Shown here in pieces: positions 14,721 to 52,651 of a DNA stretch of 64,000 bases. Numbering within the stretch: position 1 is the first letter of the stretch; each line of letters opens with the position of its first letter. The position numbers and the translations under genes were made by a program. The notes under the pieces were generated by a model. It was not told where the DNA came from. It saw only the letters and a list, made by a program, of their open reading frames with translations, and searched no databases. This stretch comes from Candidatus Woesearchaeota archaeon (GTDB taxonomy: Archaea > Nanobdellota > Nanobdellia > Woesearchaeales > JAFGUC01), in the NCBI GenBank assembly GCA_016938695.1, contig JAFGUC010000006.1, positions 124,001 through 188,000 of the forward strand. The letters run 5' to 3'.

Positions 14721-15555
14721 AGTTGCACTTATTGGTCTTGGATATTGGGGTAGTAAACATCTCGAATTTTTTAAGAATTCTTCAGAGATTGAAATAGTTT
14801 ATTTGTGTGATAAAAATAAAATATTGCCAGATTCTAATTTTGTTAAAGATTATAGAGATATTGATGTAACTAAAATTGATTTTGTGGATGTGGTTACTTC
14901 AGAAGAAACACATTTTGAAATTGCAGATTATTTCTTGTCTAAAGATGTTTATGTTTTTTTAGAGAAACCATTATGTGTTGATTCTGAGGATTTGAATAAT
15001 TTTTCAAAAAACCCTAATCATGATAAATTAATGGTTGGATATTTATATAATTTTGATAAAGCATTAGATAGTTTTTTTGAAAACAATTCGGATTTAAATT
15101 CATTAAATAAGATAGAAATAATTTGGAATGATTTATTATTACGTGATAAGTCTTGTTCGATTGTTGCGGATTTAGGACCTCATGTTTTTTCAATATTGAA
15201 TAGATTTTCAGAAAATATTAATATTGATTGTGTCGAGAAAAGTAAATTATTAACTAGTATTTATGGAACGATTAAGATTTCTGAAAGATTTGTTCCTTTC
15301 TATATTTCCTTGAGTTGGAATTCAGAAATTAAACAGCGTTTGGTTAAAATTCATTCAAATGAGTCGTTTACAATTATTGATTGTTTGAATGGTTGTATAA
15401 ATTTAGAACAATTGCCAAAATATTATACGCTTAGTCTTGAATTGGAATATTTCATTAATGTTGTTAGGAAACAACAATTAGTTAAAATTAATTCTTTAGA
15501 TTATGGAATACAAGTATTTAAGTTGTGGTTTCCAATTGATTCAGTATCTAAATGA
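14707..15555 (+). CDS. Gfo/Idh/MocA-family oxidoreductase
   Basis: A 282-residue NAD(P)-dependent sugar dehydrogenase-type protein. The N-terminal Rossmann fold is IRVALIGLGYWGSKHLEFF, and the catalytic-lysine motif is EKPLC. The C-terminal half is a beta-rich substrate domain (VADLGPHVFSILNRF). Such enzymes oxidise or reduce nucleotide-sugar intermediates, commonly next to glycosyltransferases. It overlaps the GT2 before it by 14 bp. The 3' end overlaps convergently with the radical SAM gene by 8 bp. It is slightly shorter than the usual 330-370 residues. Confidence 0.88.
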   Translation: MAKIRVALIGLGYWGSKHLEFFKNSSEIEIVYLCDKNKILPDSNFVKDYRDIDVTKIDFVDVVTSEETHFEIADYFLSKDVYVFLEKPLCVDSEDLNNFSKNPNHDKLMVGYLYNFDKALDSFFENNSDLNSLNKIEIIWNDLLLRDKSCSIVADLGPHVFSILNRFSENINIDCVEKSKLLTSIYGTIKISERFVPFYISLSWNSEIKQRLVKIHSNESFTIIDCLNGCINLEQLPKYYTLSLELEYFINVVRKQQLVKINSLDYGIQVFKLWFPIDSVSK

Positions 15556-16909
15556 AGTCTTTCTTGAGTTTGTTTTTTTTTGAAAAGAAATATTTTATAA
15601 ATTGGAATGTAATTTTGATTGTTTGAATTGGATATTTTATTAAAAATTTTAGTGTTCTTATTATTGTTAAAAAATTAAAGTAGTATGTTTTGTAAAATAT
15701 TTTTTCAAGATTTATTTTAGTGTACTTAATTGAATATGGAAATAATGAAAATTCTATTTTGTCTTTATTTTCTATAAAGAACTTTGTTTTTGGATATGGT
15801 GTTAATTGACTAACTATTGCAAAATCTATGTTTAATTTTGTAGCGTCTTTTGCATCTTTTTTTATGGATTTTATGGTATCATTAGGAAATCCTACTAAGA
15901 ACCAAGCAATTACTTCAATGTTATATTTTTTTAATATCTTTATTATTTCTCTACAATTTTGTGATTTGTTGTTTGAATATTTTTGATTCTCTTTTTGTAG
16001 ACTTTCAATTCCTATGTAAATTCTATAGCATCCTGCTTTTTTCATCTCTGAAATTATTTTTTCGTCAAGTAGATCAACTCTACATAAGCACGACCATTTT
16101 AATTTTAGTTTGTTTGTTCTAATTAGTCTGCATAATTTAATTGTTTCTTCACTATTTATGTTGAATGTATCATCCATGAATCTTATGTTTTTGACTTTTT
16201 CAGATTCTGTTAGATGTTTTAATTCTTCTATGATGTTGTTGTTGCTTCTTCGATAGTATTTTGTTCCGTATGTTTGTATACAAAAATCGCAGTTGAATGG
16301 ACATCCTCGTCCTGCAAGAACTGTTGTGAATCTTTTGTTACTGAATATATCTTTGTATTTTTTTGATGTTGTTCTAGGATATCTAATTTGATTTAGATTT
16401 TTTATTCTTTTTTGCATTTCATTGTCTATTATTTTATTTTCTGTTTTGTATGAAATGCCTTTTTGATTTTCGAATTTTGTGTTTTTTTCAATTTTTTTAA
16501 TTAATTCTTGTATTGTTTTTTCTGGTTCATTTTTGATGATAATATCAATTTTTGTTTTTTGAAGTATCTCTTTAGGAAAAATAGTTGGATAATATCCTAT
16601 TGCAATTACTGTTGCTTTGCAATTTTTTTTAATAATTGAAACTGAGTTAATATCTTCGTTGAAACTTTCAATTCCGATTAATGTTATTATTACGTCTGGT
16701 TTTGTTATTTTTATGGTTTTTATTAATTTGGTAATTGTTGTTTTTTCTGCAATGCAGTCTATAATTTTTATTTGATGTTTTTGGTCAATGTTTTCTGCAA
16801 TGTATTTTAGCTCTAATGGTGGAAATAAGAATTCTTTTGCATAATATGTACAAGAAAATCTTCGTATTATTTGTTCTTTGAATGGTAAGTTTATAAGTAA
16901 AATTTTCAT
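15548..16909 (-). CDS. Cobalamin-binding-type radical SAM protein (class B)
   Basis: A 453-residue enzyme. Residues 1-140 form a B12-binding-like Rossmann domain (MKILLINLPF; FPPLELKYIAE; VIAIGYYPTI). The radical SAM cluster is C203, C207 and C210 in RGCPFNCDFC, followed by IRFMDDTFNI and IGIESLQKE. The basic C-terminal 70 residues are rich in Lys and Ile. It resembles BchE/hopanoid/fungal-type B12-radical SAM enzymes that methylate or rearrange lipids, sugars or peptides. A DxHxxG cobalamin-ligand motif is not seen, as in many of this class. It is divergent from the GT2 at 16963, sharing a palindromic TATA. Confidence 0.88.
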   Translation of the reverse strand: MKILLINLPFKEQIIRRFSCTYYAKEFLFPPLELKYIAENIDQKHQIKIIDCIAEKTTITKLIKTIKITKPDVIITLIGIESFNEDINSVSIIKKNCKATVIAIGYYPTIFPKEILQKTKIDIIIKNEPEKTIQELIKKIEKNTKFENQKGISYKTENKIIDNEMQKRIKNLNQIRYPRTTSKKYKDIFSNKRFTTVLAGRGCPFNCDFCIQTYGTKYYRRSNNNIIEELKHLTESEKVKNIRFMDDTFNINSEETIKLCRLIRTNKLKLKWSCLCRVDLLDEKIISEMKKAGCYRIYIGIESLQKENQKYSNNKSQNCREIIKILKKYNIEVIAWFLVGFPNDTIKSIKKDAKDATKLNIDFAIVSQLTPYPKTKFFIENKDKIEFSLFPYSIKYTKINLEKIFYKTYYFNFLTIIRTLKFLIKYPIQTIKITFQFIKYFFSKKNKLKKDFI

Positions 16910-19238: not shown

Positions 19239-20690
19239 TTATTCGGTTATATTATCATATCCATATATGTGATAGTAAGGTATGATGTATTTTAGTGATT
19301 GTCCTTCTTTTAGTCCTTTGTAAGTATAAGTAATTAATCTAGTGAAATAACTTAATTTTTGTTTTTTAATCATCTTGATTATTTTTGGAAGAACTGTAAT
19401 TAAGTATGCTTTAGCATGAAGAAATTCTATTTCTTTAAATGAAATTTGTTTGTTTTCAATTACTGCACCATATTGTAGATTGTCTACATGGTTTGCTCTT
19501 TTTAGGTTTAAAGTTGTGTTTGTTTCCCCAAGAATCTTCATTGATTTTTTGGTGATTGGTTTGTATATGAAGAATGCACTTCTACTAGCATTTAGACGTT
19601 TTGCAAGTTTTATTGTTTTGTTTATCTTGTTTTTATCTTCTGTTGGAGACCCGATAATATAATATAGTGTTTTATTGATTTTTTTAGAATCTAGTAATCT
19701 GTTTATTTTAAGTATTTCTTTGGTACTAATTCTTTTATTGTGAATCTTGTTTCGTACGAAGTCATCTCCAGATTCAATACCCATACGAATTATTTTACAT
19801 CCTGCTTTTGCTAGTAAATCAATTTTTTCTTCATCTAGATTATCTATTCTTGAAAACACACTTATAGGATGCTTTTTTGGATCTAGAAGTTCATTATAAC
19901 GTATTGTAAATCTTTTCAACCAGTTTTTATCTAGAGTAAAAACGGGATCAAAAATTTGGGCTAATTTCATCCCTCTTTTCTTGTATTTATTCCATTGGAA
20001 TGAGATTTCTTCAGCGAACCACTCAGGATCTATCTTTCTGTAATATTTTCCTTTAACGTGGTCTTCTATCTCGCATGCTTCACAAAAAGAACAATTGTAT
20101 GGGCATCCTCTACTTCCAACGAAGTATATCATTTGTAAAAAATACAAGTATTTGTCTAGATCGTCCCATAAATCCCAATCTAAGTGGGGTGTATTTGAAA
20201 GGTCAGTTATAAATTTGCCAGAGTTGTTTTTTATTGTTTTTGATCCGTCTTTTACCCAAAAACCATCAACTTTTTTTGGTAATTTTTTGTTTTTTTCGTA
20301 TTTGTTGAGTATTTCAAGTAAGGTATATTCTCCATCTCCAATAATTATTCCATTGAAGAAACTTTTTTTGATTGCTTCTTCAGGATAGATTGAAGTATAG
20401 TATCCTCCACCAATAATAGGAATATCTGGATATCTTTTTTTAAGAAATAATGATATTTTTGCAACATATTGCATGTATAAGTTGTTGCATGAAAATGCAA
20501 AAATTTTAGGATTTGTATTTTCTATTTTTTTAATTAGATATTCTTTCCAATCTTTTTGATGAAAAGTGGTATCTGCAATAAATGCTCTGTGATTTTTAGA
20601 TTCGTTTATTTTGGTGGCAAGAGTAGTAATTGCGACATCTAATGCGCTGTAATCTGCTTTGAATAGAGCATTTATGAAAAGTATATTCAT
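19239..20690 (-). CDS. Cobalamin-binding-type radical SAM protein (class B)
   Basis: A 483-residue enzyme. The N-terminal B12-binding-like domain has ILFINALF and PIIGGGYYTSIYPEEAI, with IIIGDGEYTLLEIL after it. The radical SAM cluster is C196, C200 and C203 in RGCPYNCSFC, with two more Cys close by (CEAC). RMGIESGDD is the later strand motif. The family includes methyltransferases and oxidoreductases with very diverse substrates. It is transcribed on its own from a TTTAAATGG-like box about 27 bp upstream. A second class B enzyme this close to GT genes suggests modification of a surface glycan, lipid or peptide. Confidence 0.87.
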   Translation of the reverse strand: MNILFINALFKADYSALDVAITTLATKINESKNHRAFIADTTFHQKDWKEYLIKKIENTNPKIFAFSCNNLYMQYVAKISLFLKKRYPDIPIIGGGYYTSIYPEEAIKKSFFNGIIIGDGEYTLLEILNKYEKNKKLPKKVDGFWVKDGSKTIKNNSGKFITDLSNTPHLDWDLWDDLDKYLYFLQMIYFVGSRGCPYNCSFCEACEIEDHVKGKYYRKIDPEWFAEEISFQWNKYKKRGMKLAQIFDPVFTLDKNWLKRFTIRYNELLDPKKHPISVFSRIDNLDEEKIDLLAKAGCKIIRMGIESGDDFVRNKIHNKRISTKEILKINRLLDSKKINKTLYYIIGSPTEDKNKINKTIKLAKRLNASRSAFFIYKPITKKSMKILGETNTTLNLKRANHVDNLQYGAVIENKQISFKEIEFLHAKAYLITVLPKIIKMIKKQKLSYFTRLITYTYKGLKEGQSLKYIIPYYHIYGYDNITE

Positions 20691-20771
20691 TTTTCCAAGA
20701 GTATTAGTTCCATTTAAAAAGTGTTTCGTTTTTTAGAAATTTATTTAAATACTTTATATTTAATTTCACAA

Positions 20772-21833
20772 ATGGAGCTTTTTGTTTATATTCTTCCTTT
20801 TGCTTTGCTACTTGGTTTTTTTACGTCTTATTCTGATATAAAATCTTCAAAAATTAAGAATTATGTTCTTAAGTATTGTTTATTTTTTATAATCTTAATT
20901 AATGTGTTTTTTTTAGCAATAATGAAATTCAATCATTTTAATATGGCTAATGTTCTTCCCTATTATAGAGATTATATCTTAAGTGTTGTTTTTGTGTTCT
21001 TGGTTAGTCTTATTTTGTGGATTTTTGGATTTTGGAATGCTGCAGATTCAAAACTTATAACTGTTTTCGCATTAGCGCTTCCACCGTCGACTGTAGTTTA
21101 TAATTATTCTTCATTATATGGAGTTAATTTTTTTTATAATGTAGTTTTTGTTAATATCATATTTTTCATATTTAGATCGTTAAGGCATTTAAAAACTTTT
21201 GATAAGAAGAAATTAGGTTACTTGCCTAAGTTTTCTTTTTTTAGCTTTTTTAATCTTTTTTTGGTTGTTTTTTCTTTTGGTTTTGTATCACGAATTTTTA
21301 ACTTTATTTCTAATTCCGTCGATAGATTTTATATTAATATTTTATTCATGATTTCTCTTTTTTACTTTTTAAGAAAATTGAAAATTCAAAAGTACATTAT
21401 TTTTATCTTCTTTGGTATTAGTTTATACTTTAATAGAAATGAATTTTTAAATATTATTTTTTGGAAGAATTTATTTGGTATTTTTTTATTCTTAACATTT
21501 ATACGTTTGTTTATGGATTATTTATCTATTTCTAATGTATCTATTGTAAAGATTGACGAATTAAAACCAGGTATGCATTTAGCTCAAGATTTTGTGATTG
21601 ATGGAAAAAAGAAATCAAGATTCTTATCTGATATTATTTCTTATGATCAGTTTAAAGGTTTGTCTTTGGATTCAATATCTGATATACAAAAAATTAAGCA
21701 AGATATTCGTAATGGTGAAATTTTAATATCTCGACGTGATAGTTTTGCACCATTTATTTTTATAGGATATATACTAACTGTTTTGTTGCAATCTAATTTG
21801 TTAACTTTTTTGAGAATTATTTTTAAGTTCTAA
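20772..21833 (+). CDS. A24 (prepilin peptidase-like) membrane protein with altered GxGD motif
   Basis: A 353-residue polytopic protein homologous to archaeal prepilin peptidases and to the gene at 42063. The first catalytic Asp is D22 in YSDIKSSKIKN. The second is D92, but its motif is NAADSK, where GxGD is expected. About eight membrane segments follow, then a cytoplasmic domain (VKIDELKPGMHLAQDF) also present in the 42063 protein, then a last membrane helix. The start at ATG 20772 lies about 27 bp from a TTTAAATA box; an upstream ATG at 20721 is unlikely. Both Asp remain, so activity is possible with a changed specificity. Its location among radical SAM genes invites a role in cutting the His-repeat peptide leaders, but that is a guess. 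Confidence 0.7.
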   Translation: MELFVYILPFALLLGFFTSYSDIKSSKIKNYVLKYCLFFIILINVFFLAIMKFNHFNMANVLPYYRDYILSVVFVFLVSLILWIFGFWNAADSKLITVFALALPPSTVVYNYSSLYGVNFFYNVVFVNIIFFIFRSLRHLKTFDKKKLGYLPKFSFFSFFNLFLVVFSFGFVSRIFNFISNSVDRFYINILFMISLFYFLRKLKIQKYIIFIFFGISLYFNRNEFLNIIFWKNLFGIFLFLTFIRLFMDYLSISNVSIVKIDELKPGMHLAQDFVIDGKKKSRFLSDIISYDQFKGLSLDSISDIQKIKQDIRNGEILISRRDSFAPFIFIGYILTVLLQSNLLTFLRIIFKF

Positions 21834-24054
21834 ATAGGGGTTCTATGATTTTTTTATTTATTGATATTTGTGTTTTTATTTCATTCTTGAAATATATTAT
21901 CTTGGGTTTTTCTTCATTTGTATTTGATATTTGTTTTAATTTTGCATATTTTAAATAATCGAGAAGTTTATTTTTGTTTGGTTTATTATTTATTTTTATG
22001 AATTCAAAGATTGCAGATTCTTCAATTGTTTTGTTTTTGTTTATTTTTTTGTAGTTAAGCATAAAGTTATTGGATTCGAATAGTTTTATTATCTCGTCAG
22101 GTTCTCTAAGTGTATAAAGCATCTCATTTGCTATGGTGTTTAGTAATGAATTGTATTTGGTGTTACAAAGGTGAAATATTCTTATTGTTCCTTTTTCTTT
22201 TAAATTATTGTTTAGAAATTCAAAGTATTTTGTGGGATTTTTAATGCAGTGAAGTAATCCTCTATCAAAAATAAGGTCAGATTTTTCTATAAATATTGTG
22301 TTTTCAATGTTTTGGTTTATGTAATCAATATTATCTAGTTTGTTTTTTTCGGTTGCAATTTTTAGTGCTTCGCTTGAGAAATCAATTCCAATTATTTTAG
22401 ATTTTTTGTTTTCGTTTGCAATTTTTTTTGTAAATTCTCCAGTTGAGCAACCCATATCTATAATTGTTTTTTTGTCTTCAGATATATTTGTGTTTAATAT
22501 TTTCTCATTATTAATGTTCCAGAATAAACTTTCTTCATTTTTTATTGTATATGTGTCCCAGAAAAAAGAGTAATTTTTACTAAAAATTTCTTTGATTTCT
22601 TGAATTATTATTTCTTGTTCTTTGTTTTTTGATTTTTTATTAAAAATTGTGCCTAATGATTTTATTGTTGTTTCTTCTTCAGTATCACTTTTAAATATAT
22701 CAATTAGATTTTGAATATATCTTTCTTTTTTTGAATCATAATATTGATATTTTCCAGGAGCTAAATCTGCATAATCAATTTTTTTTGCTTTTATTATTGG
22801 TTTTAATGTTTTGAAATCTTGTGTTCTTGGAACAGGCACAAAAGGATGTATCTCGAGTCTTGATCCCATTGCGATTGAAAACAAAATACTAAGAATCATA
22901 TCTTCTTTTGTTTGGTGAGGTGTTCCTAGAATGACTTCAATAATTGGTTTTGTTTGTTTTTCAAGTAATTTTTTGAACATTCGTCGTGATTCTGTGAAGT
23001 TATATTCGCTTTTGTTATATTTTTTTATATTTTCTAAATTAATGTCTTCAAATGAAATTCGTAAATCTTTAGTTATTCCTTCTAAATCTTCTATTGTTTC
23101 TTCATTGAGTTTTTTAATATCGAAAAGTAAGCTATATTTAATGTCGATGTTTTGTTTTTTTGTTTCTAAAATTATTTTTTTGAGATGATTTTTGTAGTTT
23201 AAACATATATTTTCATCCATAAAGAAAATATCTTTTATTTTCGGAAATATTTTTTTTGTTTCTTTAATATCATTTAGTATTTTTTCAGGACTGTTAAATC
23301 TTAATTTATTTCCTTCAAGTACGCTAAAACCGCAATATGTGCAGTTATTTGGGCATCCGTGTGAGGAATAGCAAATTAAAGTATCGTAATCTGAATAAAA
23401 CTTTTTAATTATATTTAAATTAGGAAAACTGAATTCATTAATACATAATTTACCCGTCATAACTCTGTCGATTTGAAATTGTCTTAGGCTGTTTGGAGCT
23501 AATGTTACTAATGTTCCACCGACACTAATTTTAGATTGTTTGAATTTTCTCCTTATTATTTTAATGTATTCATTTATTATTTTGTAGTTATATGTGAATG
23601 TTCCTGTTATTAGTATTTCGTCTGGTTCAATTGTTATTTTTTCTAATTCTTTTGGAAATAATTCGTTTTTTTTACCGTGTAAATCGATTATTTCAATATT
23701 TTTATCTAATCCAATAAATTCTGCAAGTCTTGAAGCGGTTCCAGTTATTTCTTTGTATTTGTTTTTTAGGATTTCTGAAATTATAATTATAAGAAAATTC
23801 TTTTTATCTTTGAATTCTAATTTAATGCATTCTGTTTTTATTCTTTGTAGAATCTCATTTTGTTCTTGTGTTTTTTCGATTTTTATATACAATCCTTTAG
23901 GAGTTCTAATATTTTGTAGGAAATTTAAATTTAATATTTTTGTTTCTTTTGGTGTTATAAGTAGTTTTGGTTGAGAAAAAGTAATTGTATCTTGGTTAAT
24001 AATTGCAGTAGCTACTTTTATTTCAAAGTCTGGCTCGTTAGGATTGATTATCAT
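21823..24054 (-). CDS. Class B radical SAM protein fused to a C-terminal methyltransferase
   Basis: A 743-residue enzyme. Residues 1-215 are a divergent cobalamin-binding-like region (KISVGGTLVTLAP). The radical SAM domain has C234, C238 and C241 in HGCPNNCTYC, then FFMDENICL. Residues 520-680 are a class I SAM methyltransferase (TIIDMGCSTGEFTKKIA; IIGIDFSSEAL; LIFDRGLLHCI). The gene begins inside the stop of the tandem radical SAM gene (4-bp overlap), so the two are translated together. Having both radical and polar methylation modules in one chain suggests successive methylations of one substrate. The 3' end overlaps the A24-like gene by 11 bp, convergently. Confidence 0.83.
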   Translation of the reverse strand: MIINPNEPDFEIKVATAIINQDTITFSQPKLLITPKETKILNLNFLQNIRTPKGLYIKIEKTQEQNEILQRIKTECIKLEFKDKKNFLIIIISEILKNKYKEITGTASRLAEFIGLDKNIEIIDLHGKKNELFPKELEKITIEPDEILITGTFTYNYKIINEYIKIIRRKFKQSKISVGGTLVTLAPNSLRQFQIDRVMTGKLCINEFSFPNLNIIKKFYSDYDTLICYSSHGCPNNCTYCGFSVLEGNKLRFNSPEKILNDIKETKKIFPKIKDIFFMDENICLNYKNHLKKIILETKKQNIDIKYSLLFDIKKLNEETIEDLEGITKDLRISFEDINLENIKKYNKSEYNFTESRRMFKKLLEKQTKPIIEVILGTPHQTKEDMILSILFSIAMGSRLEIHPFVPVPRTQDFKTLKPIIKAKKIDYADLAPGKYQYYDSKKERYIQNLIDIFKSDTEEETTIKSLGTIFNKKSKNKEQEIIIQEIKEIFSKNYSFFWDTYTIKNEESLFWNINNEKILNTNISEDKKTIIDMGCSTGEFTKKIANENKKSKIIGIDFSSEALKIATEKNKLDNIDYINQNIENTIFIEKSDLIFDRGLLHCIKNPTKYFEFLNNNLKEKGTIRIFHLCNTKYNSLLNTIANEMLYTLREPDEIIKLFESNNFMLNYKKINKNKTIEESAIFEFIKINNKPNKNKLLDYLKYAKLKQISNTNEEKPKIIYFKNEIKTQISINKKIIEPLFRT

Positions 24055-25721
24055 TTTATATTTTCTGGTCTTGCGAAAGGGTCCAATTCTGCAATATTTC
24101 CTTTATTTTTTAGTGCTGAAAATCTACATCCACCGAGGCATTGTGATAGAAGGTAGCACACCTTACATTCATTTGGAATTAATATTCCATTTTTTGTGTT
24201 TGAAAAAATAGGTGAGTTTGTTATTTCTTTGAAGTTGTTTTCATTTAATTTCGTGTTTGGTTCATTAATTGAATAACAGTATTTTAGTTCTCCGTTTGGA
24301 TTCAGAACTATTGTATTTCCAATTCCACACGTCCAGAATCCGTTACTGATATCTTTTAAAATTTCAGGTTTGTAAAAGCAAAATGGTAGTGCGGTAATGT
24401 GGATTTTGTATTTTGACGATGTATTATGTATATGTATTTTATCAATTAGATTTTCAAGTTCTTTGAAGTTGATTGAATTTTTTGTGTTTGGATTGTCAAT
24501 TGGTCTAAGATATGTTATTTCAGATTTGCAATCTTGTGATAACTGTTCATATATTTCAAAATTATTAATTGTTTCATGATTTGTTATGACATTGATAATT
24601 TTTCTTGGTTTATTTAGATTTGTTAGAATTTTTTTGATTTGTTTTGTTTCAGAATTAATTTTGTGGATTGAAATCATGATTTGATCAACATTGTTATTAA
24701 TAAATTCAATATCATTTTCTTCTAATTTTAGTCCATTAGTATTAAGTAAAACTTTTAATTGTAATTCTTTGGCGTACTCAATTAAATCCCAAATATCTTT
24801 TCTAATGGTTGGTTCTCCACCAGTGAACCTTATTGTTTGAATGTCGTTGTTTTTTAGGATTTTTATGTTTGTTTTGATTTCATCTGTTGTTAATTCATTC
24901 TGTGTCTGTTTACTGTTTTTATTCATACAAAATTCACAATTTAAATTACAATCATATGTTATTTCTAGTTTAGCTTCTATTGGTTTTAATGGAATGTTTT
25001 TTATTTGATTAATTATTAAATCATTTTTATGTGCGAAAAGTCCGTCACAATTATCGAGATTTTCACATAGTTGACAAATTGTTTTATCTGTGTTCTCTTT
25101 TATGTCATAACTACTACCATCATATTTTTTTGTATTATCATTAAATAATACTTTAATGCATTCTGGAATGTTTGCTGTGTGTAAAATTAATTCTTGATTT
25201 TTGATTTGATTGATTTTCTCGTAGAATTCTACATAATTAATATATTCAGAATAGTTGTTAAGTTCGTTAGTATTTTCTGGGAAAAAAAACTCAAATATAA
25301 ACTCTTTAATTATTGGAATAAAATAATTTATTATTTTTGGAATATTTGTTGTTTTTCTAATTTGAATTAAAATTTTGGTTTTATTTTTAATTTTGTTTAG
25401 TAGATTTATGTTTATATTTTGTTGTATGAATGGTTCTGCTTTAATTATGATTTCTGTACTGATTTCATCAATGACTTTTGTTTTGTCTGAATCTTGTAAA
25501 AATGATCCGTTTGTTATTATTACTACTTCTTTTTTTGTTAGTTGATTTGTTATGCTTTTTAATTTATTTATGTCAAGAGTAGGCTCTCCTCCAAAAATAA
25601 TTATTCTGTTTTCTTTTATTTTGTTTATTATATTTGAGCTAGAATCTTCTAGATTATATTTTCTATAACAATTACTGCAATTTAGATTACATTCATTTGA
25701 AAGTTTGATATATTGTTTCAT
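24051..25721 (-). CDS. Tandem double radical SAM protein with C-terminal SPASM
   Basis: A 556-residue protein with two complete radical SAM units. Unit 1 (residues 1-230) has C11, C15 and C18 (CNLNCSNC), GGEPT at 44-48, and an auxiliary set C188, C216, C219 and C225 (C-x2-C-x5-C). Unit 2 (250-556) has C258, C262 and C265 (CNLNCEFC), GGEPT at 301-305, and a SPASM-type set C448, C465, C482, C519, C522, C528 and C532. Up to four Fe-S clusters are predicted. SPASM enzymes commonly modify peptides. The gene is divergent from the His-repeat peptide genes and shares a symmetric TATA element with them, which makes those peptides the obvious candidate substrates. Confidence 0.88.
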   Translation of the reverse strand: MKQYIKLSNECNLNCSNCYRKYNLEDSSSNIINKIKENRIIIFGGEPTLDINKLKSITNQLTKKEVVIITNGSFLQDSDKTKVIDEISTEIIIKAEPFIQQNININLLNKIKNKTKILIQIRKTTNIPKIINYFIPIIKEFIFEFFFPENTNELNNYSEYINYVEFYEKINQIKNQELILHTANIPECIKVLFNDNTKKYDGSSYDIKENTDKTICQLCENLDNCDGLFAHKNDLIINQIKNIPLKPIEAKLEITYDCNLNCEFCMNKNSKQTQNELTTDEIKTNIKILKNNDIQTIRFTGGEPTIRKDIWDLIEYAKELQLKVLLNTNGLKLEENDIEFINNNVDQIMISIHKINSETKQIKKILTNLNKPRKIINVITNHETINNFEIYEQLSQDCKSEITYLRPIDNPNTKNSINFKELENLIDKIHIHNTSSKYKIHITALPFCFYKPEILKDISNGFWTCGIGNTIVLNPNGELKYCYSINEPNTKLNENNFKEITNSPIFSNTKNGILIPNECKVCYLLSQCLGGCRFSALKNKGNIAELDPFARPENIK

Positions 25722-25797: not shown

Positions 25798-26196
25798 ATG
25801 GTTTTCCCAAAGTTCAAGCGCAAAGTTGCTGATTATTTAGGTTCTGAAGATGGATTTGTGGTAAGCAAAAAAATGCTTGCTTTAGGTTCCGTTGTTTTAT
25901 CGGGTAGCATTGCTTTATTGGGAAAAGAAGTTGCAGCACATTCTACGCATTGTAGTGGTTCAGTTAATGAATTTGGTTATAGTTGTAGTAATGATGGTTT
26001 AGCTGGTGTATTGACTCATAGTACGCATGGTAGTCATGGTAGTCATGGTAGTCATGGTTCACATACCACACATAACACTCATTCAAATCATAGTACGCAC
26101 GGTAGTCATGCAAGTCATGGCAGTCATTCAAATTCACATGTAAATCATTGTACTCATGCAACACATTCATCGCATGGTACTCATAGTAGTTATTAA
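25798..26196 (+). CDS. His-Xaa-Ser/Thr repeat peptide 1 (HxsA-like, predicted radical SAM substrate)
   Basis: A 132-residue precursor. Residues 1-22 are a basic block (FPKFKRKVADYLGSEDGFV), 25-42 are hydrophobic, and KEVAA-H at 43-48 looks like a signal-peptidase site. Residues 48-73 carry HSTHC and YSCS. From H74 to H129 there is a His every third residue (H-small-Ser/Thr), with one register slip between H110 and H114. There are 21 His and three Cys in all. The chain ends in Tyr. Triplet His repeats next to radical SAM genes define bacterial HxsA. Alternatives are a simple metal-binding protein, but the neighbours argue against it. The start has AGGTG five bases upstream. It is 5 bp from the second peptide gene. 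Confidence 0.82.
   Translation: MVFPKFKRKVADYLGSEDGFVVSKKMLALGSVVLSGSIALLGKEVAAHSTHCSGSVNEFGYSCSNDGLAGVLTHSTHGSHGSHGSHGSHTTHNTHSNHSTHGSHASHGSHSNSHVNHCTHATHSSHGTHSSY
26017..26184 (+). repeat. 9-bp codon repeat encoding His-Xaa-Ser/Thr (peptide 1)
   Basis: Nineteen imperfect copies of a CAT-GGT-AGT-like 9-mer, with the third and first codons varying among Gly, Ser, Ala, Thr, Asn, Val and Cys. The longest near-identical run is about 26027-26060. It is coding repeat, expanded at protein level, not a CRISPR array. Confidence 0.85.
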
Positions 26197-26201
26197 CGAA
26201 A

Positions 26202-26642
26202 ATGTTTCCGAAATTAAAGAAAAAGATAGGGGATTATTTAAGTAATGAAGATGGCAGTGTTTTGAGATCTTCGACATTGAAGATTGCTGCGGTTGTAGTT
26301 CCTTCTGCTGTAATTTTATCTCAGTTATCATATGCAGCACATACTAATAATTTATTGGCAAAGTATGCTTCTGTAAATGGTGGAGTTGTAGGTTCAATAC
26401 ACAGTTCTCACGGAACTCACGGAACTCACAGTTCTCATGGAACTCACTCTAGTCATAATACTCATGCAAGTCATGGAAGTCATGCAACGCATTCTAGCCA
26501 TTCTAGTCATGGAAGCCATTGTACTCACAGTACTCACAGTACTCATAGTACTCATGGAACTCATGGTAGTCATGGTAGTCATTCAACGCATTCGTCACAT
26601 AGTACGCATGGTAGTCATGGTTCTCATTCTGACGGTTATTAG
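26202..26642 (+). CDS. His-Xaa-Ser/Thr repeat peptide 2 (HxsA-like, predicted radical SAM substrate)
   Basis: A 146-residue paralogue of the preceding gene. The leader repeats the same plan: FPKLKKKIGDYLSNEDGSV (2-20), a hydrophobic stretch 25-44, then YAA-H at 44-47. A spacer (48-66) precedes 26 His residues in an unbroken period of three from H67 to H142, each followed by a small residue and Ser or Thr. One Cys (C107) falls in the Xaa position. The chain ends SDGY, so both peptides finish in Tyr. With all His on one face of a three-fold helix, a modified or metal-loaded rod is conceivable. Co-transcribed with peptide 1. Confidence 0.82.
   Translation: MFPKLKKKIGDYLSNEDGSVLRSSTLKIAAVVVPSAVILSQLSYAAHTNNLLAKYASVNGGVVGSIHSSHGTHGTHSSHGTHSSHNTHASHGSHATHSSHSSHGSHCTHSTHSTHSTHGTHGSHGSHSTHSSHSTHGSHGSHSDGY
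26400..26627 (+). repeat. 9-bp codon repeat encoding His-Xaa-Ser/Thr (peptide 2)
   Basis: Twenty-six contiguous 9-bp units with CAT or CAC as the invariant first codon and AGT, ACT or TCT-like third codons. Synonymous codons vary between units, so the amino-acid pattern is held more strictly than the DNA, which suggests selection on the protein. Confidence 0.85.
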
Positions 26643-26692
26643 TTTAATACAAAGATTTTTATAGTTCTATTTTTTTTGTGGTTTTGGTAGGC

Positions 26693-28486
26693 ATGGATGT
26701 GTATATACAGTTAACAAGGGATTGTAATCATGATTGTATTTTTTGTTCTGCTCCTAAAGATGATTTATATCTCTCGTATGAGGATATCATTTCTAGAATT
26801 GATAAATTTAGTACACAAGGTGTGGGAAAAACTCCTTCAGGCGATTTTGTTTTAACTGGTGGTGAACCAACAAAACATCCTGATTTACTGAAAATTTTTT
26901 CATATTTATCTGAACGAAATTTGTATTTTCGGGTTATTACTAATGGTGTAAATCTTAAAGATCCTGTGTTTGTAAAACAAATGTATGATGCTGGTTTACG
27001 TAGGATTTACATTTCAGTTCATCATTTTGATCCAAAAGAGTCTATGGAAATATCTTCTGCAGATTATCCTGATTTGATTGATACTCTAAAAGGAATAGAT
27101 AATGTAACAAAATATTCTGATGTTGATGTTTGTATTAATACTACAATTATTCGACAGAATTACAAGGTTTTGTTAGATATTGCAAAGCAGTTTGTTCCTA
27201 AATATGAAAACGTTCGAGCATTTACTTTTAATTTTGTTGATATTTGTGGAAATATTGTAAATGGAAAAAATTCTGCAGAATCAATTGTTCCTAAGTATAG
27301 TGAATGTGAGAAGTATTTGTACGATGTTTTTCGATATTTAATTAAACATCGAATTGTTTTTAGATTTGAACGTTCTCCATTATGTTATGCTCGAGGTTTT
27401 GAGGAATATTCTAGTGATGCAAATAGAAATGTAGGTGCAGAATTTTATTATACAACATTTACTGATTCTAAACAAAAAGATACTAATTATAATCTATATG
27501 GTTTTGTTAAGTCTAGTGATTGTATGTTGTGTTCTTTGAATAGTATTTGTTCAGGAATTTCTGGTCGTTATGCTGAAATTTATGGACTTAGTGAGTTATA
27601 TCCTGTTTTTGATGATGCTTCTCAAATAGAGATGAAAATTAAACTTCAAAATAATTATAAGGAAAAATTATTTATCAATAAAATTGATTCTCTAAATTAT
27701 ACTGATTTGAAACAAACTTTATTGAATGGTTTTAATAACCTTGATGGATTTTCAAGATTAATCAAACCAAAACGGAAAGTCCTTTTGAAGTTTGATGTAG
27801 GAGGAAGTTCTGTTAATTTTGCTCTTTTGAAAAATTTGATAGAATCTTTACAATCCAATGAAAATGAAGTTGTTGTTTGTGATGGTTTAATTGATTGCGA
27901 TTCAAATAAATCTATATCTTCTTTTGATAATTCTGGATTAAAAGAATTTTGTGATAAAATGAATGTTAGTTGTGTTAATTTGTTATCGTATGGTTATCAT
28001 AAAATTACGATTAAAAATCCTTTACTTTCAAGTTCAGTTGAAGTTAGTGATGTTGTCGATACGGTTGACTTTATAATTAATGTTTCACAATTGAGAAAAC
28101 ACGATATGACTAATCTACATTGTGCAATTTCTAATATTTTTGGTTTAGTTTCATCAAAGACATGTAATGACTTAAATTTATTGCAGGACAAGAAATCTTA
28201 TAATTCTTTGATTGTTGATATTTATTCTTATTTTAAATCAAAAATTAGTTTGAATATTCTTGATGCGACAACATTACATGATTCAAAAGATTTTGCGTTG
28301 AATAATATATTATCAAATTTTATTATATTGTCTCGTGATGGCTTGGCAGTTGATACTGTTGCATCTTATATTGTTTTAAGAGATATTTTATCACTTCCAA
28401 CAAATGTGCTTGCAGAAAAAAAGAATTTAGGATTTTTAGATTTAGAAAGAGTTAATTTTTTTGGTAATACTTTAGATGATTTTTAA
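26693..28486 (+). CDS. Radical SAM-DUF362 fusion protein
   Basis: A 597-residue fusion. Residues 1-300 are a radical SAM domain with C11, C15 and C18 (CNHDCIFC), GGEPT at 56-60, and the auxiliary set C231, C277, C280 and C286. Residues about 350-595 match DUF362: KRKVLLKFDVGGSS, VVDTVDFIINVSQLRKHDMT, AISNIFGLVSSKTCND, ILDATT and ILSRDGLAVDTVAS. DUF362 proteins often carry Fe-S clusters and are of unclear function. The start is ATG 26693, about 35 bp from a TTTTTATAG box; a GTG at 26678 is less likely. It lies directly after the His-repeat peptides and is the first enzyme gene of the cluster. Confidence 0.85.
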   Translation: MDVYIQLTRDCNHDCIFCSAPKDDLYLSYEDIISRIDKFSTQGVGKTPSGDFVLTGGEPTKHPDLLKIFSYLSERNLYFRVITNGVNLKDPVFVKQMYDAGLRRIYISVHHFDPKESMEISSADYPDLIDTLKGIDNVTKYSDVDVCINTTIIRQNYKVLLDIAKQFVPKYENVRAFTFNFVDICGNIVNGKNSAESIVPKYSECEKYLYDVFRYLIKHRIVFRFERSPLCYARGFEEYSSDANRNVGAEFYYTTFTDSKQKDTNYNLYGFVKSSDCMLCSLNSICSGISGRYAEIYGLSELYPVFDDASQIEMKIKLQNNYKEKLFINKIDSLNYTDLKQTLLNGFNNLDGFSRLIKPKRKVLLKFDVGGSSVNFALLKNLIESLQSNENEVVVCDGLIDCDSNKSISSFDNSGLKEFCDKMNVSCVNLLSYGYHKITIKNPLLSSSVEVSDVVDTVDFIINVSQLRKHDMTNLHCAISNIFGLVSSKTCNDLNLLQDKKSYNSLIVDIYSYFKSKISLNILDATTLHDSKDFALNNILSNFIILSRDGLAVDTVASYIVLRDILSLPTNVLAEKKNLGFLDLERVNFFGNTLDDF

Positions 28487-28509
28487 GTTATGGAATAAAT
28501 GGTGTTTAT

Positions 28510-29370
28510 ATGGTGATAGAAGGATATTTTCACATAAAATTGAATAATAATTGTAACTGCAATTGTAATTTTTGTGCAGATTCTCAATCTATTAAGACTA
28601 TTGCACCGCCTTCATTTGAATCAATTAAAAAAAAAATAGATATTGGTTTCGAAAAGGGTTTTAGACAATTAATCATAACCGGTGGTGAACCGACTATATC
28701 TGAATATTTACTAGAAACAATTAGATATGCTAAGTTAGTTGGTTTTAGTTATATACAATTAGTGAGTAACGCTCGAATGTTATCTAATCCTGTTTTTTTG
28801 AATCAAGTTATTGAATCTGGTGTGACTAAATTTCAGATTTCTTATTTTGCTCACGATGCAAAATTGTACGATTCTATTACTAAGGTCCCTGGTAGTTATA
28901 AGCAATTGACAACTGCTTTATTGTTATTAAAAGCAAGATCTTGTGAAATTTCGTTTAATTCGGTGATAACTCGTCAAAACTATAAATTTTTGTTAGAAAT
29001 GTATCTACAAATGCTTGCTTTTAATTCAGTTACAATACAATTTTCATTTTTGAACCCAATTGGAAATGCTGCTCAAGACTTTGATGAGATTGTTCCAAAA
29101 TATACTGAGGTGGCTGGACCTCTTCAAGAGGTTATACGTCTTAATAAGGTAATAAATCCAGATTTAGTTCAAATTGAAAATATTCCTTTTTGTTTTATTG
29201 ATGAAAAGTATCATTACTTGATAACTGATTTACGATGTCCTAAGTCTGAATTGGGTTTAAGAAGGTTAAATAAGACTAAAGACTTAGATATTTGTGTTGG
29301 TTGTAAGTATTATGATTTTTGTTCAGGAATTTGGAAGAAATATGTTGAAGTTCGTGGTACTGATTTTTAA
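28510..29370 (+). CDS. Radical SAM protein with auxiliary cluster motif, HxsC-like candidate
   Basis: A 286-residue radical SAM enzyme with C15, C19 and C22 (within CNCNCNFC, which adds C17), GGEPT at 58-62, a NSVITRQNYKFL segment, and a C-terminal auxiliary set C228, C262, C265 and C271 followed by W-K-K-Y-V-E. The layout and sequence resemble the N-terminal half of the gene before it and the gene at 31844, so these are paralogues. The ribosome site and start (GGTGTTTATATGG) are the same as in peptide gene 1. It likely acts on the His-repeat peptides or assists the SPASM maturase. The HxsC label is tentative. Confidence 0.82.
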   Translation: MVIEGYFHIKLNNNCNCNCNFCADSQSIKTIAPPSFESIKKKIDIGFEKGFRQLIITGGEPTISEYLLETIRYAKLVGFSYIQLVSNARMLSNPVFLNQVIESGVTKFQISYFAHDAKLYDSITKVPGSYKQLTTALLLLKARSCEISFNSVITRQNYKFLLEMYLQMLAFNSVTIQFSFLNPIGNAAQDFDEIVPKYTEVAGPLQEVIRLNKVINPDLVQIENIPFCFIDEKYHYLITDLRCPKSELGLRRLNKTKDLDICVGCKYYDFCSGIWKKYVEVRGTDF

Positions 29371-29383
29371 ATAAAGCAAAAAC

Positions 29384-29392
29384 ATTTAAATA
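29384..29392 (+). promoter_or_regulatory. TATA box ahead of the HxsD-like genes
   Basis: ATTTAAATA lies about 37 bp before ATG 29425, with a run of six G (29413-29418) as ribosome site. It indicates that the HxsD-HxsB-radical SAM group can be transcribed separately from the peptide genes. Confidence 0.5.
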
Positions 29393-29424
29393 AAATACAA
29401 ATAATTTTTAATGGGGGGATTTAT

Positions 29425-30156
29425 ATGGAAACTCTTACTGAGGAAGTGTTAAAACCAGTTTTAGAAAAGTTAAATTTTGTTACTCTTGGTGTAGGTTTTG
29501 CGAAGATTTCTTTGCGATTTGAATTATACGATTTAGAATCAATTTATTCAGCAGCGTACTCGATGTTTGATAAAGCAAGTTTCTTTTTTGATGGAGATTC
29601 ACAAAAAGCAATTGTATATATTTTTGCAAAAAAACCACAAGATTTGTACAGTTGTGTTCTTGAATTTAATAATCATTTGATTAATTATTCATATTATAAA
29701 ATTCGTTCATCCGAGAATAAAAAATTGAAAGAATTTATTTTATCAAAATCTTTGTTTGGTATTCCAACTGAAGAATCTGTTTCTCAACCACAAGAACCAT
29801 GTGATTGTGAAATTCAAAATTGTGATGAAGATGTTTTTTCCCAGCAACCATCTGTTGATGATGTAAATCTTGATGATTTTGAGGTTGAAGATTTGGATAG
29901 TATTAGAGTACCTTGGGAAGATAAAAATGATGCAGATTTATTGGAATCTGAGCGTGAAAAGTTAGATGAACTTTTTAAGGAAGAACCTTCAAAATCTGAA
30001 CAAGGTAAAAAACCAGTACAATCTGAACAGACAGATGATGGTTCAGATGATTTTTCTATACCTTGGTCTGAAGAAGATATTGAATTATCAGAATCAGACT
30101 TAGCAGAATTGAAAAAACTCTATGATGATGAATCTTTTGTTGGAGATGAAAAATGA
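29425..30156 (+). CDS. HxsD-like protein with acidic C-terminal extension
   Basis: A 243-residue protein. Residues 28-113 resemble bacterial HxsD: a YDLESIYSAAYSMFDKASFF segment, a strand pair (KAIVYIFAKK), then EFNNHLINYSYYKI in the position of the HxsD LLNDYxLRE-type motif, and a final helix (EFILSKSLFG). Residues 115-243 are unlike HxsD: strongly acidic and disordered, with two related blocks around IRVPWEDKNDADLLESE and FSIPWSEEDIELSESD. HxsD accompanies HxsB and HxsC but has no proven role; a substrate-binding adaptor is plausible. The acidic tail could bind the His-rich peptide or a metal. It overlaps the next gene by ATGA. Confidence 0.68.
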   Translation: METLTEEVLKPVLEKLNFVTLGVGFAKISLRFELYDLESIYSAAYSMFDKASFFFDGDSQKAIVYIFAKKPQDLYSCVLEFNNHLINYSYYKIRSSENKKLKEFILSKSLFGIPTEESVSQPQEPCDCEIQNCDEDVFSQQPSVDDVNLDDFEVEDLDSIRVPWEDKNDADLLESEREKLDELFKEEPSKSEQGKKPVQSEQTDDGSDDFSIPWSEEDIELSESDLAELKKLYDDESFVGDEK

Positions 30157-30413
30157 AAATAACTGAACAGCGTTTAAATTTGGATTTTGATTCTGGAGTT
30201 GCGCATGTCGAGTTTAATAAACTTTTTTATGAGAAATCTTTAATTTTAGAGGTTTGTTCAGAGTTTTTAGAAATCTTTTATTTCGTATTTGATGAATCAG
30301 CAGATTATTTTTCTCTTAGTTTGGTCGATAGAAAAAAAGGAGATTTTAAGGAAGCAGTTTATGAATTTTTCAATTACTTAGTTGGAGTTCAAGTTTCTTT
30401 GATAAAATCATAG
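30153..30413 (+). CDS. Second HxsD-like small protein
   Basis: An 86-residue protein with the same secondary-structure plan as the HxsD region before it: FNKLFYEKSLILEVCSEF, a strand pair, then AVYEFFNYLVGVQ in place of the LLNDY-type motif. It lacks the acidic tail and the last helix. No signal peptide is present. It overlaps the preceding gene (ATGA) and is 10 bp from the HxsB-like gene. A heterodimer with the first HxsD-like protein is possible. The family link is weaker than for the neighbour. Confidence 0.55.
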   Translation: MKITEQRLNLDFDSGVAHVEFNKLFYEKSLILEVCSEFLEIFYFVFDESADYFSLSLVDRKKGDFKEAVYEFFNYLVGVQVSLIKS

Positions 30414-30423
30414 GTGATTTAGA

Positions 30424-31878
30424 ATGTCTAATTTTGATTATAAAGTAGTACCTTACAAAATAAAGAGATATGATGATAAATTTTTGGTCATTAGTGATTT
30501 TGGTCAGTGGATAGTTTTAAATTCTGAAGATTATAAGAAGTTCAAATTTAAAAATTTGGATCATGAACTTTATTCAAAATTAGAGAACTCTGGAATTATT
30601 ATAACTCCAGGAAATGAAGCAAATCTATTTACTTCATTGACAAATTACAAATGGAATATTTCTAAAGGTCCAACTTTACATATTTTGGTACCAACTTTAA
30701 GGTGTAATCAAACTTGCAAGTATTGTTATGCTTTACGAGTAAAAGAAGATTTACAAGGTTATGACATGACTGAAGAAACTGCAAAGCAAACAGTTGATTT
30801 TATTTTTAGTACACCTTCTCCAATATACTCTATTGAGTTTACTGGTGGTGAACCTTTGTTACGTTTTGATATTGTTAAGTATGTTGTTGATTATGCAACT
30901 GAATTGGCAAAAAAATATTCTAAGAGTGTTGTTTTTTCAATTGTTACTAATGGTTTGTTGTTTGATGATGAGAAAATTCAGTATTTTTATGATAATAAAG
31001 TCGGTCTCTGTTTATCGTTAGATGGACCAAAAGAATTGCACGATTATCATAGAATGAAAAATTTACCAGGTATGCCTGGAACATATGATGATGTAATTAA
31101 GATTATTTCACATTTACGTGATATTAAATATCCTAGTGTAAATGCATTACCTGTTATTACTAAAAAATCTTTAAGTTATTGGAAAGAATTAGTTGATGAG
31201 TATGTTCGATTTAATTTCCAAGCTCTACGTTTTAAGTACATAGGTTTTTTTGGGTTTGCAACAGGTAATTGGAAAGAATTAGGTTATACTCCTGAAGAAT
31301 TTTTAGAAATCTGGAAACAAGTTATTGATTATATGATTGATTTAAATGCGAAAGGTATTGTTATTTCAGAACAACTAGCAACGATTATGCTTAAGAAAAT
31401 TTTAAATTTTGAGAATCCTGGTTATTCTGAATTAGATTTTCCTTGTGGCGCAGTAATTGGTCAGTTGTTGTATAATTATGATGGAAAGATTTATACTTGT
31501 GATGAATCACGAACGCATGAAGAGTTTGCAATAGGTCACGTTTCTACATCAAAATTATCTGAGTTGTTAAATCATGACGTTACAAAAACAATGATTTCAG
31601 TATCAAATAATTTGTCGTTTGGTTGTGATTTATGTCCTTACTATCCTTATTGTGGAGTTTGTCCATTAGAGAATTATAAATCTGAAGGAACATTCATGGT
31701 TAATATGCCTTCTAATTATAGATGTAAGATGCATAAGGGTATGTTTGATTATATTTTTGATAGATGTATACATAGCGAGAAGCATTTGAAATATTTCAAA
31801 GAATGGGTCGGATATCGAGATAATCAACTTTCAACTAAAGGTTGTGATTGGTCGGGTATGGAAATTGGAAAGAATTGA
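30424..31878 (+). CDS. hxsB: HxsB-like radical SAM/SPASM maturase
   Basis: A 484-residue enzyme. The N-terminal 80 residues (YKIKRYDDKFLVISDFGQW) match the HxsB-type preamble. The cluster motif is C94, C98 and C101 within PTLHILVPTLRCNQTCKYC, GGEP is at 141-144, and the SPASM domain has C341, C359, C401, C404, C410, C413 and C434. The CGAVIGQLLYNYDGKIYTCDE segment is strikingly like bacterial HxsB. SPASM maturases install thioether, ether or C-C crosslinks or epimerise residues in peptides; what HxsB does to HxS repeats is not known. A GGTGATT ribosome site precedes ATG 30424. It overlaps the next gene by 35 bp. Confidence 0.8.
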   Translation: MSNFDYKVVPYKIKRYDDKFLVISDFGQWIVLNSEDYKKFKFKNLDHELYSKLENSGIIITPGNEANLFTSLTNYKWNISKGPTLHILVPTLRCNQTCKYCYALRVKEDLQGYDMTEETAKQTVDFIFSTPSPIYSIEFTGGEPLLRFDIVKYVVDYATELAKKYSKSVVFSIVTNGLLFDDEKIQYFYDNKVGLCLSLDGPKELHDYHRMKNLPGMPGTYDDVIKIISHLRDIKYPSVNALPVITKKSLSYWKELVDEYVRFNFQALRFKYIGFFGFATGNWKELGYTPEEFLEIWKQVIDYMIDLNAKGIVISEQLATIMLKKILNFENPGYSELDFPCGAVIGQLLYNYDGKIYTCDESRTHEEFAIGHVSTSKLSELLNHDVTKTMISVSNNLSFGCDLCPYYPYCGVCPLENYKSEGTFMVNMPSNYRCKMHKGMFDYIFDRCIHSEKHLKYFKEWVGYRDNQLSTKGCDWSGMEIGKN

Positions 31879-32878
31879 TATTAAAACCGGTTATTTGTGT
31901 AATAATAATTGTTTGTTTTGTGTTCAAGCCCATAATAAAAAATATGGCAATCGAACTTTTGATCAGTTGACTAAAGTCTTGGATGATGCATATAAAGATG
32001 GAGTTAGAGGTGTTGTTTTTACAGGAGGAGAGTTTACATTACGTTCTGATTGTATTAAGCTTATTAAGTATGCTCATGATTTGGGGTTTGATTTAATTCA
32101 ATTACAATCTAATGGTCGTTCTTTTTCAAGTGAGAAATTTGTTGATGCTTGTATTGCAGCAGGTGCAAATGAATTTTCTCCGGCTTTACACGGTTATACT
32201 GCAGAGATTCATGATTATCTTACTCGTGCTAATGGTGCGTGGTCTCAAACTGTTAAAGGAATACAAAATATTGTGAAACGTGGTTATAATACTATTGTTA
32301 ATTCAGTTGTTGTTAAACCAAACTATAGATATGTTCCTGAATTGGCAAAATTATTTGTCAAGTTAGATGTTGATCAGTTTCAATTTGCTTTTGTCCATGC
32401 AGTTGGTAATGCGATGTTGTATTATGACAAAATGATTCCGTTTGTTTCTTTGGTTTCACCTTATGTGAAAAAAGGATTACAAATTGGTCTTGATAATAAT
32501 AAGCGAGTTATGGCAGAAGCAATGCCTTATTGTGTTATGCAAGGGTATGAAAGGTATGTTTCTGAATTATATATTCCTCAGACAAGAATTTCAGAAGGAA
32601 ATGAATTAAGACTTGATTTTGAAACAATTAGAAAGACTCAAGGAAAAACTTTATTTCCACAATGTTTAGAATGTGCATTTAGTCAGATTTGTGAGGGTCC
32701 TTGGTTAGAATATCCTCAACAAAGGGGTTCGTCTGAGTTTAAACCTGTGCCTGGAAAGAAAATTTTATCAACACAAGAGATATTAGATGATTATATTAGG
32801 TTTCCAGAAAATCCTTTTAAAGCATTTGGTCCTGATGTTTTTAGAAATGATTTCCGTATTCGTAGAGGTGGAATATGA
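31844..32878 (+). CDS. Radical SAM protein with auxiliary cluster motif, HxsC-like candidate
   Basis: A 344-residue radical SAM enzyme with C19, C23 and C26 (CNNNCLFC), GGEFT at 61-65 (Phe replaces the usual Pro), NSVVVKPNYRYV, and an auxiliary set C230, C274, C277 and C283 followed by P-W-L-E-Y. It is a paralogue of the 28510 enzyme. The frame opens at GTG 31844; TTG 31865 would give MERIDIKTGYLC, which aligns better with its paralogues, so the true start may be there. It overlaps the HxsB-like gene and ends in an ATGA overlap with a membrane protein. Bacterial cassettes pair HxsB with HxsC, which fits the order here. Confidence 0.8.
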   Translation: MIGRVWKLERIDIKTGYLCNNNCLFCVQAHNKKYGNRTFDQLTKVLDDAYKDGVRGVVFTGGEFTLRSDCIKLIKYAHDLGFDLIQLQSNGRSFSSEKFVDACIAAGANEFSPALHGYTAEIHDYLTRANGAWSQTVKGIQNIVKRGYNTIVNSVVVKPNYRYVPELAKLFVKLDVDQFQFAFVHAVGNAMLYYDKMIPFVSLVSPYVKKGLQIGLDNNKRVMAEAMPYCVMQGYERYVSELYIPQTRISEGNELRLDFETIRKTQGKTLFPQCLECAFSQICEGPWLEYPQQRGSSEFKPVPGKKILSTQEILDDYIRFPENPFKAFGPDVFRNDFRIRRGGI

Positions 32879-42917: not shown

Positions 42918-42977
42918 AAAAAAAGATTTAAAAAGTATCTTTTCTTATCTTTTATATAATCGGGTAAAGGTTTTTGT

Positions 42978-48446: not shown

Positions 48447-48450
48447 TTGA

Positions 48451-48981: not shown

Positions 48982-48982
48982 G

Positions 48983-49865: not shown

Positions 49866-49873
49866 GATTTACA

Positions 49874-51033: not shown

Positions 51034-51036
51034 AAA

Positions 51037-52632: not shown

Positions 52633-52651
52633 TTGAATTTGGGTGGGGATT

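Follow-up and report, generated by a model that had tools for sequence, protein, structure and literature searches.

The closest described relative of the locus analysed here is the His-Xaa-Ser (Hxs) system, which is represented in NCBIfam by the families HxsA/A3/A4, HxsB, HxsC/C4 and HxsD (Haft and Basu, as cited in PMC9062424). The system was predicted from genomes, and HxsB and HxsC are the enzymes on which its peptides putatively depend (PMC9062424). No Hxs product is reported in the literature that was searched. For triceptide-type radical-SAM enzymes, a bond between C2 of His and the C-beta of residue i+2 has been described, and HaaB, YhhB and ScaB are radical-SAM enzymes that form three-residue cyclophanes (PMC11002830). 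Crosslinks from His to butyrine occur in copper-binding peptides of the noursin type (PMC10206099). The words aspartic, aspartyl, A24 and archaea are all absent from the main text of a 2023 review on RiPP leader proteases (PMC10885120).

An Hxs gene cluster around two precursors

The window, i.e. the complete stretch of 64,000 bp that was analysed, originates from a Woesearchaeota archaeon and codes for two adjacent precursor peptides, with 5 bases between their ORFs. Precursor 1 (132 aa, 25798..26196, + strand) consists of an EDGFV leader, a hydrophobic segment, a VAA-H junction, an array of 19 His and a terminal Tyr. Precursor 2 (146 aa, 26202..26642, +) has an EDGSV leader, a hydrophobic segment, a YAA-H junction, an array of 26 His and, again, a terminal Tyr. 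A first-pass annotation had described a common plan of EDGxV leader, hydrophobic segment, Ala-Ala-His and last Tyr, and this plan is indeed present in both ORFs, the leader having the form PKxKxK..YL..EDGxV. Both precursors match the NCBIfam models (precursor 1: HxsA3 with 7e-12 and HxsA4 with 8e-11; precursor 2: HxsA4 with 3e-14 and HxsA3 with 3e-11), but their 43-54 bits on the HxsA3/HxsA4 models are under the cut-offs of 65 and 55. The HxsA4 cut-off is passed by relatives from loci L171 and L003. A second tandem pair of long-array precursors, with 38 and 30 His in register, is found at L171:6379-7445 (-).

The Hxs gene cluster which flanks the peptides had been overlooked in the first-pass annotation. 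All genes from 25798 to 32878 are on one strand and are separated by short gaps or overlap. The precursors are followed by a radical-SAM protein, in which an HxsC4/HxsC-like N-terminal half is fused to a DUF362 domain (26678..28486, +), and by an HxsC4/HxsC-like radical-SAM protein of 286 aa (28510..29370, +; HxsC4 9e-34 and HxsC 5e-23, below the cut-offs). Next are HxsD, whose C-terminus is drawn out into a long acidic tail (29425..30156, +; TIGR03976 with 7e-10 and 39 bits, cut-off 50) and an HxsD-like paralogue of 86 aa (30153..30413, +), for which a small alpha/beta fold is predicted (pLDDT 89). The cluster is completed by HxsB, the radical-SAM/SPASM maturase (30424..31878, +; TIGR03978 with 416.6 bits, cut-off 370), and by an HxsC4-like radical-SAM protein, belonging to the type associated with long His arrays (31844..32878, +; HxsC4 1e-40). 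The best scores of the three HxsC homologues are 89 bits for HxsC (cut-off 267.9) and 140 bits for HxsC4 (cut-off 500). A PDB sequence search with the DUF362 part returned nothing useful.

Upstream of the precursors, a membrane aspartic protease of the A24 type, which we propose to be the leader peptidase, is encoded at 20721..21833 (+). Three radical-SAM proteins encoded on the opposite strand are possible tailoring enzymes: a protein of 556 aa that is divergent to the precursors (24051..25721, -), a methyltransferase fusion with a weak B12-binding match (21823..24054, -) and a B12-binding protein (19239..20690, -). Together with those at 9136-10707 and 15548-16909, the latter two belong to a further set of radical-SAM genes in the window, some of which have B12-binding or methyltransferase domains.

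The same genome has a second locus (L062) with its own precursor, HxsD, HxsB (442.6 bits, cut-off 370), HxsC-like protein and A24 protease, so that an elaborate peptide system with two loci is found in an archaeal genome of 1.5 Mb. As judged from sequence, the window peptides are precursors of the Hxs system, a predicted family of radical-SAM RiPPs.

A scan for promoters and terminators was discarded, as its hits were at chance level and its sigma-70 model is unsuited to an archaeal host. Three families were set aside because they look like housekeeping neighbours, being similar to RNase P p30 (c4, near 11 clusters), TBP and MCM (c8 and c9); c4 we take to be RNase P p30-like on reading alone.

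A clear homologue of HxsD is present in all related loci. In the archaeal proteins, the acidic tail has a recurring motif resembling I-A-V-P-W-E-E-K, of which the window HxsD carries two versions. The gene at L173:5061-5642 (-), in genome G091, codes for an HxsD domain that runs on into an HxsA leader. The core of this fusion protein has no His array, and no HxsB was detected in genome G091. This natural fusion ties HxsD to the leader, as far as gene structure can tell. In an AlphaFold model of the fusion protein, HxsD is confident; the leader is of low to middling confidence and its docking cannot be read. The model of the HxsD-like protein shows the order strand-strand-helix-strand-strand-helix, and its best PDB matches are Rpb11/ferredoxin-like with Z under 8. 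Foldseek and VIA-align with this model gave common alpha/beta arrangements, with no PqqD-like protein among the matches listed, and the predicted fold is thus not obviously that of a PqqD-type recognition element. HxsD, HxsD-like, HxsB and HxsC also cluster at L077 and L093 (genomes G041 and G108), where neither a recognised leader peptide nor an A24 protease of the Hxs type is found.

The repeated unit and the enzymes proposed to act on it

The array of peptide 2 (residues 67-142) has 26 His with all 25 spacings being 3, and one extra His is outside the array in the AAH junction. The 19 His of peptide 1 (residues 74-129) have a spacing of 3 in 17 cases and of 4 in a single case (H-SNS-H). This recount agrees with the perfect period of three and the single slip that had been described before. 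When the residues of each array were shuffled 20,000 times, the observed HxxH counts were never matched (peptide 2: 25 versus a maximum of 16; peptide 1: 17 versus a maximum of 13). The last Tyr is in the His register in peptide 1 (HSSY) and out of register in peptide 2 (HSDGY).

Two parts of the proposed plan did not hold beyond the window in the same way. The terminal Tyr is common among homologues but not universal: in 11 of 36 precursors the last four residues include no aromatic one. Ala-Ala-His is not general either, with ADH, NAH, ASH and AGH junctions occurring among homologues. N-terminal to the array, many archaeal precursors share a core motif resembling HxNxLSISY...GTHxHH (a crude pattern finds it in 11 of 39), and peptide 2 has HTNNLLAKYASVNGGVVGSIHSSH at this place. 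There are also numerous homologues with few HxS units which have kept the leader and a His-containing core.

As had been noted in the first pass, synonymous codons vary in peptide 2 while the register is fixed. His is encoded by CAT (19) and CAC (7), and the residue preceding His by serine codons of both the AGY and the TCN type and by ACN threonine codons. With this mixture, and with 19 distinct DNA types among 25 nine-base units, the array is no recently arisen perfect tandem repeat; a tandem-repeat scan reported short or imperfect arrays only. These data bear on the possibility that the register is a by-product of slippage of a nine-base repeat, which took place with no selection on the peptide. 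Slippage would preserve frame and register because the unit is nine bases long, and the arrays of L003 and L116 do consist of few distinct DNA units. However, the His and Ser/Thr positions of the window arrays have been kept while the codons for His, Ser and Thr are mixed, and there are 36 unit types among 52 in L024, besides the 19 among 25 in peptide 2. We consider slippage to be a very improbable explanation and treat the register as selected.

Across 13 arrays, 316 of 327 pairs of neighbouring His are three residues apart, so that free drift of the register is not seen. Immediately ahead of the second His of a pair stand Ser (197), Thr (106), Ala (10), His (5) or Asn (3), which puts Ser or Thr at this position in 303 of 321 cases; the array of L116 is almost wholly H-x-Thr. 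The first x of the unit is small (Ser, Gly, Ala, Thr). Because the residue before His is limited in this way, the selected unit at the sequence level is His-x-[Ser/Thr], which goes beyond His spacing alone. The idea of selection on His geometry is thus incomplete, in that Ser/Thr is restricted as well. This suggests that Ser/Thr takes part in the chemistry, beyond any role of a His face.

It had been suggested that the array is selected for the geometry of a three-fold helix that has His on one face. This model is in line with the period of three, with the small x residues and with weak matches to collagen-like models. Pro is absent from the arrays, however, and Gly does not occur at every third residue, so the arrays are not collagen-like; moreover, the model leaves both the radical-SAM partners and the Ser/Thr rule unexplained. 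We give it little credence and prefer modification of the His-x-[Ser/Thr] unit.

An HxsC4-like enzyme (at least 200 bits) occurs in all 7 systems with long arrays (at least 11 His in register) versus 4 of 26 other systems, in a comparison that is weakened by the unequal flank lengths of the loci. The HxsC4-like enzyme is therefore the better candidate for array modification on this genomic pattern. A rival explanation is that the arrays are unmodified metal-binding peptides at the cell surface, with the radical-SAM enzymes acting elsewhere and the register reflecting metal spacing only. The high density of His behind an export-type segment would suit such a function, as would the many homologues in which leader and His-containing core persist with few HxS units. 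Metal spacing alone, though, does not require Ser/Thr before His (303 of 321), nor would unmodified arrays explain that the HxsC4-like enzyme tracks array length, or that the precursor lacks a His array in G091, where no HxsB was detected. We therefore regard unmodified arrays as rather unlikely, and modification of the units as the better reading.

Two further variants of HxsA-type proteins were encountered. At L078:11314-14094 (+), in a frame that is open from upstream, a giant protein of 977 aa has an HxsA-type leader match (G043:C12:14229); its His/Cys units (HSNC, HDNC, YPEST) number in the dozens, and it is apparently a very long precursor with other repeats. The HxsA precursor at L177:10761-11561 (-) ends in a Hint/intein-like domain (over the cut-off of Pfam Hint), which, by its domain type, may free the peptide by self-cleavage.

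The conserved leader and its probable A24 protease

The leader consensus is PKxKKKIxxFLxxE-x-G-K-I-S-K...LKxG, with the Glu being invariant in the alignment. Two residues past this Glu, Gly (32) or Ala (4) is found in the 36 scored precursors. The resulting motif E-x-[G/A]-x-[IVLM] is followed by a hydrophobic stretch ending at a signal-peptidase-like site; the stretch is strongly hydrophobic in 34 of 37 precursors, and the first His is downstream of it. A second small residue is found at the start of the hydrophobic helix. Conservation of the leader extends over many archaeal families and into Bacteria, where the same leader type occurs in Patescibacteria (with 50 or more units) and Elusimicrobia. 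With the leader conserved and a spacing of 3 in 316 of 327 cases, homologues show neither a drifting register nor a variable leader, the two observations which the first-pass annotation had named as speaking against it. Its view of the leader as both a recognition element and an export signal is consistent with the motif, the hydrophobic stretch and the signal-peptidase-like end.

An A24 homologue adjoins HxsD/HxsB in most archaeal loci, and in the Patescibacterial Hxs operon L169 it is the closing gene. The window protein at 20721-21833 scores 29 bits against Pfam Peptidase_A24 (cut-off 26.5). It belongs to an Hxs-type clade that is split from the canonical pilus peptidases with a support of 1.0 and also takes in two proteins from Patescibacteria that accompany Hxs genes. 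The clade has the signature TSYxDIKxGKIRNK, WSAGDxKL and TxPFAP, and its two catalytic Asp columns have D in 36/38 and 38/38 members, the window protein having kept the pair. A PDB sequence search with the A24 protein yielded nothing useful. At L080:10195-12858 (-), an Hxs-type A24 is fused to a long membrane domain resembling protein mannosyltransferase, and large membrane proteins resembling this domain are encoded near the A24 genes of the window and of L062.

Co-occurrence was counted by searches with an A24 profile and a leader profile over all genomes, not just near HxsB. Among 117 genomes from the order of the source organism, A24 scores form two separate groups (at least 110 bits versus at most 54). 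The leader profile gave 30 hits, two of which were dropped (a multi-helix membrane protein in G105 and a weak hit of 0.003 in G019). Precursors are thus present in 28 of the 117 genomes, 26 of these having HxsB, which occurs in 31 genomes of the sample. The Hxs-type A24 is found in all 28 leader-positive genomes and in two further ones with no recognised leader, one of them, G013, having a divergent precursor. In a phylum-wide draw of 371 genomes, which overlaps the first sample, all 33 leader-positive genomes have the Hxs-type A24, as do all 13 leader-positive ones among the genomes not used before; 8 genomes have A24 with no recognised leader. The Fisher p-values of 5e-25 and 6e-40 ignore shared ancestry, though most genomes represent different families. 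Of 32 contigs with a leader, 28 also carry A24, at a median distance of 2.9 kb.

A24 tracks the leader more closely than it tracks HxsB and is present in G022 and G091, in which HxsB was not detected. This is most naturally read as A24 cutting the precursor, and we consider it likely on this co-occurrence that it is the processing enzyme. Exceptions are found in Bacteria: Elusimicrobial L025 has the leader type with no A24 found in its genome, and no A24 of the Hxs-type clade was found for the Gracilibacterial leaders. As judged from the alignment, the cut could fall at E-x-G/A or at the small residue preceding the helix. Lys or Arg at +1 is unusual for prepilin peptidases.

The window also codes for type IV pilus genes (42063-55881: pilin-like small proteins, an ATPase and a membrane protein) with a canonical A24 of their own. 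It might thus be that the Hxs-type A24 processes nearby pilin-like or class III signal proteins and that its link to Hxs reflects a common role at the cell surface. A neighbouring family (c5) does have a class III-like signal start at five loci, MKRAQVTIFIVLG, and a pilus operon is found within the window. However, c5 occurs at these 5 loci only while A24 is present at nearly all, and the pilus operon (47928-55881) has its canonical A24 upstream at 42063-42917; most genomes hold a separate canonical copy. Given that the Hxs-type A24 accompanies the leader in 28/28 and 33/33 genomes, there seems to be only a small chance that class III proteins are its substrates, and we retain the HxsA precursor in this role.

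A proposed pathway and its relation to known systems

Starting from features that the sequences themselves show (the gene cluster, the family of leaders, the H-x-[S/T] rule, the accompanying A24 clade, the accompanying HxsC4 and the HxsD-precursor fusion), we infer the biochemical steps of a pathway, including its chemistry, cleavage site and metal binding. HxsD, the HxsD-like protein and HxsB would jointly recognise the basic amphipathic leader. The His-x-Ser/Thr units would then be modified by HxsB and above all by the HxsC4-like radical-SAM enzyme, the likeliest chemistry being a bond from His to the Ser/Thr two residues on, by analogy to His-containing triceptides. The dedicated A24 membrane aspartic protease would remove the leader near E-x-Gly/Ala or at the small residue which opens the helix. 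The hydrophobic segment ends at a signal-peptidase-like site, and the His-rich chain would be released outside, where, going by its composition only, it probably binds metal ions. On balance we favour such an archaeal Hxs variant with radical-SAM modification, leader removal by A24 and export of the His-rich core, and do so with reasonable though limited confidence.

A more far-reaching version is put forward tentatively. In DPANN-type archaea and at least two Patescibacteria, the pathway could have repurposed a prepilin-type intramembrane aspartic protease as its dedicated leader peptidase and might export a polymer-like chain with up to about 50 His-x-Ser/Thr crosslinks made by radical-SAM enzymes. 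If true, RiPP processing would have gained a new class of enzyme, and the rigid, His-lined chain would be a surface polymer of a new kind.

Among characterised enzymes, a close parallel is to the triceptides, where an aromatic residue i, which may be His, is joined to a partner at i+2 by a SPASM radical-SAM maturase. Hxs differs in having long arrays of units. With 80 bits for YhhB (cut-off 445), 70 for GrrM/OscB (310) and 62 for AmcB (425), the window HxsB is, by score, outside the characterised cyclophane-forming families. A crosslink of His to a Ser/Thr-derived residue and metal binding, both of which are proposals by analogy in the case of Hxs, would be shared with noursin, but noursin is short and is the product of a lanthipeptide synthetase, with no radical-SAM enzyme involved. 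The Hxs A24 resembles type IV prepilin peptidases in being a membrane protein with two catalytic Asp and a Pfam A24 match over the cut-off, but it forms a separate clade with its own signature, and its genomic link is to HxsA, not to the pilus.

With the curated Hxs families, the window shares an HxsB over its cut-off, homologues of HxsD, HxsC/C4 and HxsA3/A4, and H-x-S repeats behind a leader. It differs by two paired precursors (19 and 26 units), by Thr besides Ser, by a dedicated A24 protease, by three HxsC-like proteins (one a DUF362 fusion) and two HxsD-type proteins, and by most of its components being under the curated cut-offs. The repeat pattern is already known from these families, and the window system is a variant of a known, unsolved system. 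The link to the protease, the fusion of HxsD with a precursor and the link of HxsC4 to the array are new as far as we have searched. These genetic links make the Hxs family testable, as they provide a probable leader protease, a candidate array enzyme of the HxsC4-like type, the joining of HxsD to a precursor and the substrate rule H-x-[S/T].
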